A program made the position numbers and the translations under genes. A stretch of 64,000 bases of DNA. Source: Rheinheimera sp. 4Y26. Its GTDB lineage: Bacteria > Pseudomonadota > Gammaproteobacteria > Enterobacterales > Alteromonadaceae. The notes under the pieces were generated by a model, which was not told the origin of the DNA, ran no database searches, and saw only the letters and a list, made by a program, of their open reading frames with translations. The stretch's first letter is position 1, and each line of letters starts with the position of its first letter. Positions 18,184 through 47,155 of this stretch are shown in pieces. The stretch covers positions 1-64,000 of the forward strand of contig NZ_JAOBWS010000004.1 in the NCBI RefSeq assembly GCF_025245835.1. The letters are read 5' to 3'.

Positions 18184-18295
18184 GGTAAATTGAGGTGACG
18201 TTTTGCACCCAACGCAGCAGACGTTTTATTTGAGCGGTCCGGCAACGCTCCGCTTGTTTATTGCGAACATCAAATGGCGGGTAGAACCTGCAAAT

Positions 18296-18389
18296 TTCAG
18301 TTACAAAAAACCGACATCAAGCTGGCTTTTAAGTTGGCAGCTTGAGTCGCCCGGTTTTTTTGAGAGCGAACCGGCGACCTTCGGGTTAT
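18296..18389 (-). repeat. Degenerate tRNA-fMet/terminator repeat unit A
   Basis: On the minus strand this unit has sequence like the anticodon-loop-to-T-arm part of tRNA-fMet (plus-strand anchor CGACCTTCGGGTTAT), a CCCGG/TTTTTT-interrupted middle, and a copy of the tRNA terminator hairpin. No acceptor-stem pairing is possible, so it is not a functional tRNA. Confidence 0.75.
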
Positions 18390-18420
18390 CTGTTCGGCAT
18401 GTCTGTTGTCATTACCAAAT

Positions 18421-18513
18421 TTCAGATACAAAAAAACCGACATCAAGTCGGCCTTTAAGTTGGTTGCTGGAGTCGCCCGGTGTTTTAGACAGCGAACCGG
18501 CGATCTTCGGGTG
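18421..18513 (-). repeat. Degenerate tRNA-fMet/terminator repeat unit B
   Basis: Second copy of the same unit, 126 bp after unit A measured at the shared CCGACATCAAG. It is the most altered in the tRNA-like part (GATCTTCGGGTGG). Confidence 0.75.
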
Positions 18514-18535
18514 GTGAAGCAGTGAGCCTGAATTT

Positions 18536-18628
18536 TAGATACAAAAAAACCGACATCAAGTCGGCTTTTAAGTTGGTTGCTGGAGTCGCCCGGTTTTTTT
18601 GAGAGCGAACCGACGACCTTCGGGTTAT
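18536..18628 (-). repeat. Degenerate tRNA-fMet/terminator repeat unit C
   Basis: Third copy, closest in sequence to the intact gene in its GAACCGACGACCTTCGGGTTAT-like end, though the T-arm/acceptor region carries the same CCCGG/T-rich replacement as units A and B. Confidence 0.75.
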
Positions 18629-18673
18629 TTATTTCGAGTACCAAAGTACAGATACAACCCTGAATTTCAGATA

Positions 18674-18700
18674 CAAAAAAACCGACATCAAGTCGGCTTT
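18674..18700 (-). terminator. Terminator of the tRNA-fMet pair
   Basis: On the minus strand GCCGAC-TTGAT-GTCGGT is followed by seven T directly after the tRNA 3' end. The same hairpin is repeated in units A to C. Confidence 0.85.
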
Positions 18701-18705
18701 TAAGT

Positions 18706-18782
<77 letters not shown>

Positions 18783-44302: not shown

Positions 44303-44461
44303 ATGGATAAACAATGCGGCTGTTGTGGCCTGCATTGTTGTAATGGAGAACCCGGTTGTTGGAAGCCGGGTTTTTCTGTTTTAAGAGAGCGCTTATTTGT
44401 CGTCCGATTTTGCCAGATACAAAGGTTTATCACGTTGTTGTGTCACTGCAATCATGGCTAA
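44303..44461 (+). CDS. Possible short Cys-rich peptide after eda
   Basis: A 52-codon frame opens 14 bp after eda with MDKQCGCCGLHCCNGEPGCW, six Cys in the first 20 residues and two more later. GAAGAG lies about ten bases upstream. The frame runs through the eda terminator hairpin and then antisense into the 3' end of the MocR-type gene, which argues against a full-length product. It may be chance or a small metal-binding peptide. Confidence 0.2.
   Translation: MDKQCGCCGLHCCNGEPGCWKPGFSVLRERLFVVRFCQIQRFITLLCHCNHG
44349..44376 (+). terminator. Terminator of the zwf-eda operon
   Basis: AACCCGG (44349-44355) and CCGGGTT (44366-44372) form a stem followed by TTTTT, 60 bp after eda. Confidence 0.82.
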
Positions 44462-45853
44462 AGCGGTGTCCAGCGCCGGCCAGAGTTTGGCGTTGAGGCA
44501 CTGGGTTACATTCACCCGCATAAAATTGTCCGCATCCTGCTGCAGGCTAAAATGACTGCCTGGCGCCAGAATAATATGCTGGCGTTCTAAAAGTTCGGTG
44601 AGTTTTTTCGCGCTGACGCCCGCTGGCAACATCAGCCATAACAAATAGCCGCCATCCGGCTGGTGCCAGGGCCTGAAACCACGTTTGACAAATTGACGGC
44701 TGACCTGCGACATGGCGTCCTGCAGTTTTTTGCGCAGTGACTCCAGATGGCGACGATAAGCGCCACCGGTCAGAATTTGATACACAATACGCTCTACAGT
44801 TTGGGAGCTGGAACTGCCGGTGATGAGTTTTAAGTCCGTTAACGAAGCGATTTGCTCCGGGCTGGCGACGATATAACCCACCCGCAAATCAGCTGAAATG
44901 GTTTTTGACAAACTGCCCAAATAAATGCCGCTGCGAAGACCCGTCAAACTGGAATAGCGCAAACTGCTGTGCAGCTCAAAATCGGCATAAATATCATCTT
45001 CTATCAGCAGGCACTGATGTTCTTTTAAAAGCTCCAGTACAGCAAAAGCCTTTTGTGGGCTAACACAGGTGCCCACCGGATTCGACAGCACTGAATTGGT
45101 AATATAGGCTCTGGGTTTTTCTGTTTGCAACAGCGTTGTCATGGCCTGCAGATCCGGGCCGTCTTTGCAGCGCGGCAAGGGCACCACCTTTAAATGGTAC
45201 AGCCTGAGCATGGCAAAAAAATTATAAAAGCCGGGGTCATCCACCAGCACCGCATCACCGGGTTTTAAATACAGCCGTAAACATAAATCCAGCGCATGGG
45301 TGGCGCTGGAGGTTAATAAAATTTGTTGTGGTTCGGTTGGAATATTCAGTTTAGCCAGATGCTCCGCCAGATAACGGCGCAGCGCAATATTGCCCTGCGC
45401 CGGACCGTAGTCAGTGAGGGATTGCCCCTGACGAGCCACTTCGCGCATTGCCTGACGAATGGCATCTGTCGGCAGCCATTCCGGTGTTAACCAGCCAGCT
45501 GCTGGTTTAATGACGGCCGACTCACGTTGCAACGTCTGGCGCATCAAAGCAACTTCATCCGCCAATAAACTCTGACCGGCCTGAGCTTCAGACAACAGCG
45601 CCACCGGCTGGCTTTTGGCGACATAAACGCCGCTACCTGGGCGGCTAACCACCAGCGACTGTGCCGCCAGTCGTTCGTACAGCTCTGCCACTGTGAACTT
45701 ACTGACTTCAAGCCTGGTTGCCAGCTGGCGAATGGAAGGTAGTTTCATGCCCGCAGGCCAAAGCCCGCTGCTGATAGCGTTTTGCGATTGTTGCAATAAT
45801 TGTTTTGACCAGGGTTCCGAGCTGCTTTTGTCCAGCTGCAGTTGAATTGTCAT
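44393..45853 (-). CDS. MocR-type GntR/aminotransferase regulator
   Basis: The 486-residue protein fuses a GntR winged helix (about 5-75; MKLPSIRQLATRLEVSKFTVAELYERL) to a fold-type I PLP aminotransferase domain (about 105-470). The PLP Lys is in YLGSLSKTISADLRVGY, with VLVDDPGFYNFFAMLR and IEDDIYADFEL. MocR regulators control PLP, GABA or transport genes. Start ATG 45853 has AGGAAT upstream. It is divergent from an EamA transporter gene, a common MocR pairing, suggesting it regulates that transporter. Confidence 0.9.
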   Translation of the reverse strand: MTIQLQLDKSSSEPWSKQLLQQSQNAISSGLWPAGMKLPSIRQLATRLEVSKFTVAELYERLAAQSLVVSRPGSGVYVAKSQPVALLSEAQAGQSLLADEVALMRQTLQRESAVIKPAAGWLTPEWLPTDAIRQAMREVARQGQSLTDYGPAQGNIALRRYLAEHLAKLNIPTEPQQILLTSSATHALDLCLRLYLKPGDAVLVDDPGFYNFFAMLRLYHLKVVPLPRCKDGPDLQAMTTLLQTEKPRAYITNSVLSNPVGTCVSPQKAFAVLELLKEHQCLLIEDDIYADFELHSSLRYSSLTGLRSGIYLGSLSKTISADLRVGYIVASPEQIASLTDLKLITGSSSSQTVERIVYQILTGGAYRRHLESLRKKLQDAMSQVSRQFVKRGFRPWHQPDGGYLLWLMLPAGVSAKKLTELLERQHIILAPGSHFSLQQDADNFMRVNVTQCLNAKLWPALDTALAMIAVTQQRDKPLYLAKSDDK

Positions 45854-46001
45854 GGTTATTATTCCTATACAGTTTGGCCGAATAGCTGCCAACTGTCCTG
45901 ATTGTCTGGTGCTTTTGTATTTTATAGTAGCGGCTCTGGTGGTGTTGTAAAGCGATGTTGTCCCCTGATGTTGCAGAGCAGGCGTTGTGCTTTTGTTGCC
46001 T

Positions 46002-46057
46002 TGCTCATGTGCTCATGTGCTCATGTGCTCATGTGCTCATGTGCTCATGTGCTGGTG
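46002..46057. repeat. Octanucleotide tandem repeat TGCTCATG
   Basis: Six perfect copies (46002-46049) and one degenerate copy (TGCTGGTG) lie between the divergent MocR and EamA genes. Eight is not a multiple of three, so copy changes would shift any frame reading through them, or change promoter spacing. Confidence 0.95.
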
Positions 46058-46119
46058 TGCCGTTTTGCCTTGTTGGGGGCTGCGCTAAAAGCGTTTCACC
46101 GCCACACACCACCTTTGAG

Positions 46120-46179
46120 TGAATCAGTGCCTGAATCAGTGCCTGGATCAGTGCGTGAATCGTTAAGTGGATCAGTGCA
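46120..46179. repeat. Imperfect 12-bp tandem repeat, five copies
   Basis: Five 12-bp units of consensus TGAATCAGTGCC lie directly before the ribosome site of the EamA gene. Units 1 and 2 are identical and the others differ at one to several positions. Confidence 0.9.
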
Positions 46180-46189
46180 GGAGCAAATT

Positions 46190-47155
46190 ATGGCAAAGCT
46201 AAACACCCTTCAGGCCACAGCGCTCAATACGGACGCAGTAAGCAATATCGATGCAGCACTTAACACCGATGCAGCAAGTGCCAAGCTGTTATCGGCTCGC
46301 CGGCAATATTGGCAAGGGCTGGCCTGGGGCATGCTGGGCGTATTGATGTTTTCCGGTGGCATTCCGGCAACCAAACTGGCGGTTGCCGAGTTGCCTTCCA
46401 TTTTTGTTGGCGCAGGACGGGCGCTGGTGGCGGCGCTGCTCAGTTTGTTGTTATTGCTGCTGCTGAATCAACCGCTGCCCAAACGCCAGCACTGGAATGG
46501 TCTGCTGGTGGTGGCTTTTGGTGCTGTATTTGCGTATCCGGTGTTATCAGCCATTGCCATGCAAACTGTGGATGCCAGTCATGGCACCCTGGTCAGCAGC
46601 ATTATGCCGCTTTTTACCGCTATTTTTGGTGCCTGGCTCAGTGGTCAGTGGCCCAGAGCAGGTTTTTGGTTGTCGGCTTTGGCCGGTACTGCAGCTGTCA
46701 TGTTGTATGCATCGGCACAAGCGCAGGGCAGTCTGGCATCCGGCGACCTCTGGTTATTATTGGCTTGTTTTTGTTGTGGTTTGAGTTATGCCAAAGGCGC
46801 TTTATTAGCGCGGCAGATGGGCAGCTGGCAGGTGATCTGCTGGGCTTTGGTGTTGTCATTGCCGATTTTGCTGCCCCTGTGTTGGTATACCAGGCCTGAG
46901 CAGCTGAATGTCAGTGCACAAGGCTGGTTTGGTTTTGCTTATCTATCGGTATTTAGCATGTTTCTGGGTTTTTTTGCCTGGTATAAGGGGCTTGCCATGG
47001 GCGGTGTGGCGCAAATCAGTCAGCTACAGCTGCTCACCCCATTTTTGGCGTTCAGCGCTGCCGCGCTCTGGCTTGGCGAAAGTATCAGTGCGCTGGAGTG
47101 GGCGCTGGCGGTTTTTGTGGTGGCGGCCATTGCAGTGGGTCGCAAACTAGCCTGA
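46190..47155 (+). CDS. EamA/DMT superfamily transporter with repeat-bearing leader
   Basis: From ATG 46190 (AGGAG at 46179-46183) the protein has 321 residues. There is a 30-residue hydrophilic leader with an ALNTDAVSNIDAALNTDAAS repeat, then about ten hydrophobic segments in two EamA repeats (MLGVLMFSGGIPATKL; LLACFCCGLSYAKGALLARQ). The frame is also open back to 45902 through the octanucleotide array, but that part has a low-complexity CSCAHVLMCSCAHV reading and no ribosome site. Substrate unknown; it is divergent from a MocR regulator, suggesting an amine or amino acid. Confidence 0.82.
   Translation: MAKLNTLQATALNTDAVSNIDAALNTDAASAKLLSARRQYWQGLAWGMLGVLMFSGGIPATKLAVAELPSIFVGAGRALVAALLSLLLLLLLNQPLPKRQHWNGLLVVAFGAVFAYPVLSAIAMQTVDASHGTLVSSIMPLFTAIFGAWLSGQWPRAGFWLSALAGTAAVMLYASAQAQGSLASGDLWLLLACFCCGLSYAKGALLARQMGSWQVICWALVLSLPILLPLCWYTRPEQLNVSAQGWFGFAYLSVFSMFLGFFAWYKGLAMGGVAQISQLQLLTPFLAFSAAALWLGESISALEWALAVFVVAAIAVGRKLA

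Follow-up and report, generated by a model that had tools for sequence, protein, structure and literature searches.

Two short tandem arrays lie between a MocR-family regulator gene and an EamA-family transporter gene in Rheinheimera sp. 4Y26, and their position leads to the question as to whether the number of repeat copies governs the transporter, or whether the arrays are of little consequence to the gene that they precede. We addressed this question in the 64,000-nucleotide stretch of DNA that carries the locus (hereafter the window), in the remainder of the genome and in the corresponding regions of other members of the genus.

Two arrays between divergent genes

The transporter, a protein of 321 amino acids, is encoded on the plus strand (46190-47155) and is preceded by an AGGAG site at 46179-46183. 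The regulator gene is divergent from it on the minus strand (44393-45853), and its product combines a GntR domain (PF00392) with an aminotransferase-like domain (PF00155), as is characteristic of the MocR family. Domain content and gene positions thus bear out the preliminary description of this DNA, which had placed the arrays between a divergent MocR regulator and an EamA transporter. The transporter is present in 21 of 22 genus genomes when that of the window is included (20 of the 21 others), and tblastn searches located a MocR gene divergent from and adjacent to it at all 21 loci. A comparative study of MocR regulons (PMC5320631) reports that operators commonly consist of direct and inverted repeats of a box, and that some of these regulons include transporters of the DMT superfamily.

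The 8-bp array occupies 46002-46053 of the plus strand as (TGCTCATG)6.5 with a 100% match, in agreement with the six perfect copies originally reported for the EamA leader. Its half copy belongs to a diverged seventh unit, TGCTGGTG (46050-46057). The perfect period-8 stretch measures 52 bp, whereas none longer than 20 bp arose when the window was simulated 100 times with an order-1 Markov model; its length is far above chance, and such an excess of head-to-tail copies is that of a bacterial simple-sequence repeat. An adjacent pair of exact TGCTCATG units occurs at a single site in the 4.08-Mb genome, namely this array, and in just one of the 22 genus genomes, the window's own, with none in the other 21.

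The 12-bp array (46120-46179, plus strand) consists of five imperfect units of the TGAATCAGTGCC type, as had also been noted, in the order TGAATCAGTGCC, TGAATCAGTGCC, TGGATCAGTGCG, TGAATCGTTAAG and TGGATCAGTGCA, and its final base is the first base of the AGGAG site. Perfect period-12 repetition extends over 27 bp at most in this array, and in none of the 100 simulated windows does it exceed 23 bp. When up to two mismatches are allowed, the unit is found in three of 21 regions: five times in the window, twice in the sister genome (G008), and once, with two mismatches, in G013 (L007).

In the sister, whose EamA protein is 96% identical, the segment that corresponds to the 8-bp array spans 12 bp between shared anchors (one unit, TGCTGATG), as opposed to 60 bp in the window, and that of the 12-bp array spans 32 bp (two units) as opposed to 68 bp. 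Expressed in units, the window has seven versus one of the former and five versus two of the latter, differences of exactly 48 and 36 bp. Since these correspond to exactly six and three units, the change is lineage-specific and occurred in whole units, as is the case for simple-sequence repeats among relatives, here between two species (G008 and that of the window) only. Such whole-unit differences fit slippage as the probable cause, and to this extent, between species only, they agree with the earlier proposal that the 8-bp array can change length in this way. As such arrays are absent from the other 19 regions, growth here would seem the likelier course than loss in the sister. In that case, one or two seed units within an enlarged 5' leader would have been multiplied by replication slippage to give each array. 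Among the literature on Rheinheimera tandem repeats, judged by title, no title deals with such arrays.

The putative promoter block and the probable transporter leader

The MocR-proximal part of the intergenic region is strongly conserved across the genus, with CTGT(A/C)C(A/T)G boxes and a TATA(C/G)TA element whose offsets hardly vary. In the window, conservation delineates an operator-like box at 45864-45873 (CCTATACAGT, represented by CCTGTACAGT in most genus loci), a second operator-like box on the plus strand at 45892-45906 (ACTGTCCTGATTGTC), near the expected -35 region, and a -10-like element of the transporter gene, TATAGTA, on the plus strand at 45923-45929. The first of these boxes differs by one base between the window and its sister. 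TATA(C/G)TA stands at offset 68-70 in 18 of the 21 genus regions and is missing from G021, G011 and G016 (L010, L020 and L022). A third box, CTGTCCAG, lies just 3' of the -10-like element in 11 of the 21 regions; it is unrecognisable in the window, where TTGTAAAGC stands in its place (45945-45953). Matches to CTGT(A/C/T)C(A/T)G number 67 over both strands of the 21 related regions, palindromic boxes being counted on both, against a mean of 0.8 and a largest value of 4 in 200 base-composition shuffles; one exact match is located in the window itself. The 12-bp unit was considered as a MocR operator and ruled out, as it is unlike CTGT(A/C)C(A/T)G, the form taken by the conserved boxes.

A consensus promoter scan of 45800-46300 returned zero plus-strand sites and missed the conserved -10-like element too; it is by conservation, therefore, that the promoter is placed. 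A further promoter inside the leader was rejected for want of a plus-strand consensus site, although this is the same scan that misses the conserved element. With transcription starting where the -10-like element suggests, the 5' leader would extend over 45935-46189 of the plus strand (approximately 255 nt). The 8-bp array begins 72 bp 3' of the -10-like element, and the boxes lie farther upstream. Since boxes and element all precede the arrays, the latter fall within this 5' leader, and changes in them should leave promoter and operator spacing as it is. The transporter is probably under the control of the divergent MocR regulator.

Start codons, picked by eye from their Shine-Dalgarno sites, follow the -10-like element at a distance of 32-46 nt in 15 of the 18 loci with this element, of 101 nt in G018, of 178 nt in the sister and of 260 nt in the window. 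By these distances, a long transporter leader is limited to the window's sub-clade. The leader was also considered as a dispersed repeat and rejected, there being no second copy in the genome. A structured RNA was likewise dismissed: two matches only were obtained, both to microRNA families and under the gathering score, and these could be a chance product of the repeat hairpin.

Long arrays at contig joints and in the clade

A heptamer array at 1-77 of the window had been taken to indicate that such repeats are a habit of this genome. This array (GCACAAA) is indeed present, but it coincides with the start of the contig and recurs at the end of contig C2 (131578-131661), with an overlap of 74 bases. 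As its 11 copies make up 77 bp, the length of end that the assembler leaves shared between contigs, the array's apparent length is an assembly limit. The heptamer is flanked by a gene of the M9-peptidase (collagenase) family on C2 and by one of the proline-racemase family (226-1323 of the window); the sister carries no array at this place. The assembly has 66 contig ends, 6 of them on masked contigs, and 6 of the 60 readable ends terminate in 6-8-bp arrays. Array joints link the end of C2 to the start of C28 (GCACAAA), the end of C18 to the start of C12 (AAATCTCA), and the end of C30 to the start of C22 (AAGCAG). Seven pairs of contig ends have 77 bases in common, read in the same direction, and end-to-start overlaps of 66-77 bases connect 15 contig pairs, the three array pairs (72-74 bases) among them. 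Since most overlapping joints are devoid of arrays, these account for only some of the breaks.

The sister has arrays at two of the three joint sites, which backs two of the pairings: its gap between tsaB and an SDR gene contains octamers, namely AAACCTTC and others related to it, and AAGCAG x10.3 stands 56 bp from the start of its PepSY gene. At the corresponding place, the SDR gene of G018 has a 9-bp array, CTGAAACTC x12.2. An array adjoins the SDR gene at 3 of 22 loci; for the PepSY gene, the figure is 2 of the 18 loci taken in. The survey covered the best 18 of 22 loci of one set and the best 8 of 22 of another, some of them cut at contig ends. Upstream of the SDR gene, the arrays are located at L138 1-85 and L144 15319-15395 (G000), L183 15604-15769 (G008) and L222 507-616 (G018), with units of 8, 8 and 9 bp, respectively, and they follow tsaB in G000 and G008. 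Compared in this manner, the SDR-gap site persists across three related species while its repeat unit turns over. The hexamer array (L188 1-83 and L216 1981-2057 in G000; L177 10684-10745 in G008) precedes a PepSY-TM gene by 56 bp in each of the two genomes, divergent to a TonB-receptor-plug gene. A 9-bp array, CCAGCAGCA x7.6, falls within an open frame of 610 aa that has no Pfam match (L149 16919-16986), and the window holds a tandem array with units of about 113 bp at 18291-18717 (3.5 copies, 79% match).

Counting arrays with a unit of 5-12 bp, at least three perfect copies and a length of at least 24 bp, we obtained 10 rows in 1,030,715 bases of this genome, 5 in 392,472 bases of the sister, 1 in 400,000 bases of G002, and 7 in 638,771 bases of 76 loci not titled Rheinheimera, many of them cyanobacterial. 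By array number, this genome is no richer than unrelated bacteria. Arrays of at least 50 bp are distributed differently, with 8 rows in this genome (five places, three of which occupy two contig ends each), 3 rows in the sister (two places), and none in G002 or the 76 unrelated loci. Since the sample of this genome is weighted to contig ends, its array density is not a fair average. On this limited, end-weighted sample, it seems that this small clade habitually forms long arrays, and the earlier idea thus holds for arrays of at least 50 bp, confined as they are to this genome and G008 among the four samples. We consider it rather improbable that these form a clade-wide set of fast-turning 6-9-bp arrays, held at fixed places just 5' of genes and with units replaceable between species, that would jointly serve as leader rheostats in a free-living bacterium. 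The genes in such a set would be the M9-peptidase-like gene, the PepSY-TM gene beside a TonB-type receptor, the EamA gene and those of the tsaB-SDR gap, several of them having exported, membrane or transport products.

Consequences of copy number for the transporter

The preliminary description suggested that slippage of the 8-bp array might alter the reading frame, if translation starts upstream, or the promoter geometry. In the former case, an extended transporter translated from ATG 45968 would be toggled on and off. The frame is indeed open from 45902 through the end of the transporter gene in the window genome, and this ATG is presently in frame; however, it has no Shine-Dalgarno site, its counterpart in the sister is out of frame and encounters a stop, and the intergenic lengths of the two differ by 82 bp, two single-base indels included, which is not a multiple of 3. 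The sister's transporter has a whole open frame of 348 codons against 315 matched, and among the upstream ATG and GTG codons (TTG left aside) only a GTG, at five codons' distance, leads into the gene without a stop. Hence, as far as this pair reveals, translation from an upstream start is not conserved. With its AGGAG site, ATG 46190 would stay the start whatever the copy number, and the 8-bp array holds ATGs in all three frames. Given the loss of the upstream frame in the sister, the start codon's own Shine-Dalgarno site and the ATGs in every frame, slippage should not switch the transporter, and we regard this explanation as very unlikely. The promoter geometry was the main idea of the preliminary description, and repeats in a divergent intergenic region that adjoins a regulator gene do call to mind nadA of Neisseria (PMC2791445) and sabA of Helicobacter (PMC4081817). 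Both have intergenic simple-sequence repeats near a regulated gene, as is the case here, but those repeats act on promoter elements or operators, while the present ones stand downstream of the putative promoter. It also favours such a switch that the conserved promoter is putative and went undetected by the consensus scan, but the boxes and -10-like element (45864-45929) lie at least 72 bp upstream of the array, and the third box of 11 of the 21 loci, unrecognisable in the window, is likewise upstream of the arrays' place. A spacing switch of this kind is thus highly doubtful. With the promoter placed by conservation, copy number appears to change neither frame nor promoter spacing, in contrast to what a phase-variable contingency locus would require. 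It is also exceedingly unlikely that the copy number of the 8-bp array is an assembly error: contig ends are identical over as many as 77 bases, and three of the joints fall within arrays, but this array is shorter (52 bp versus 77 bp), and 45950-46300 matches only itself in the genome.

The main rival, possible though on balance unlikely, is that the 8-bp copy number grades the mRNA level or translation of the transporter, by analogy with hmw1A (PMC8262952) and uspA2 (PMC4679880), in which repeats also lie between promoter and start codon. The former source reports that 7-bp repeats 3' of an active promoter of Haemophilus influenzae hmw1A lower the transcript as copies rise; the heptanucleotide repeats of hmw1A and hmw2A lie between active promoter and start codon, in the 5' UTR, as the 8-bp repeats would here. 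The hmw repeat, however, overlaps the -10 box of promoter P2, whereas 72 bp separate the present array from the -10-like element upstream of it; furthermore, these are adhesin genes with known copy-number variation that lowers expression, whereas the gene here is a transporter with variation known between species only. The latter source describes the AGAT repeats of Moraxella catarrhalis uspA2, also a tandem repeat within a 5' UTR, as having a 4-bp unit in 6-23 copies among strains and a demonstrated effect on expression, whereas the present arrays are known from sequence. The same source includes the TAACTGA heptamers of Beggiatoaceae and cyanobacteria, which, like those here, are short direct repeats in intergenic DNA, with many of them close to a start codon, and change mostly by whole units between two close relatives; in that case, though, one fixed unit is found at many genes, whereas here the unit differs from site to site.

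In support of a graded effect, the array segment (81 nt) is predicted to form a stem with itself and to fold more favourably than shuffled versions of it (z -4.64), and the predicted energy of the leader deepens with every 8-bp unit added, by which effects on mRNA stability or early elongation would be possible. The fold of the whole leader is unremarkable (z -0.94). The predicted cost of opening the ribosome site, however, stays within 7.55-8.92 kcal/mol when the 8-mer is present in 0 to 14 copies and within 7.5-10.2 kcal/mol when the 12-mer has 1, 2, 3, 4, 5 or 7 units, without a steady trend, which argues against copy-number control by masking of this site; effects at the mRNA level are unaffected by this argument. 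The leader of the sister has a predicted opening cost of 17.9 kcal/mol versus 7.6 kcal/mol in the window, and a predicted Shine-Dalgarno access of 0.00 versus about 0.5. As removal of 8-mers or 12-mers from the window leader fails to reproduce this closure, the fold weighs little; in these predictions, the sister's higher cost is not explained by copy number alone. Moreover, adjacent 8-bp units are missing in 21 of 22 genus genomes, though 21 of these 22 retain the regulator-transporter pair.

We consider it probable that the arrays are lineage-specific simple-sequence repeats, grown by slippage in an expanded EamA 5' leader, and most likely neutral or weakly tuning. Lying 3' of the conserved boxes and promoter and 5' of a self-sufficient ribosome-binding site, they should have little effect on promoter spacing, reading frame or ribosome-site access when their copy number changes, and any tuning of mRNA level or translation would be weak. 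Contrary to near-neutrality, the six perfect copies could mean that the array is maintained. The arrays are real and ordinary simple-sequence repeats, of seemingly recent origin, that may exert a mild leader effect on the gene. The relatives correct what a single sequence had suggested by placing the promoter upstream of the repeats, just as the contig ends expose the length of the heptamer array as an assembly limit. Should copy number tune the transporter, this locus would represent a leader rheostat outside the pathogens of the cited repeat studies.
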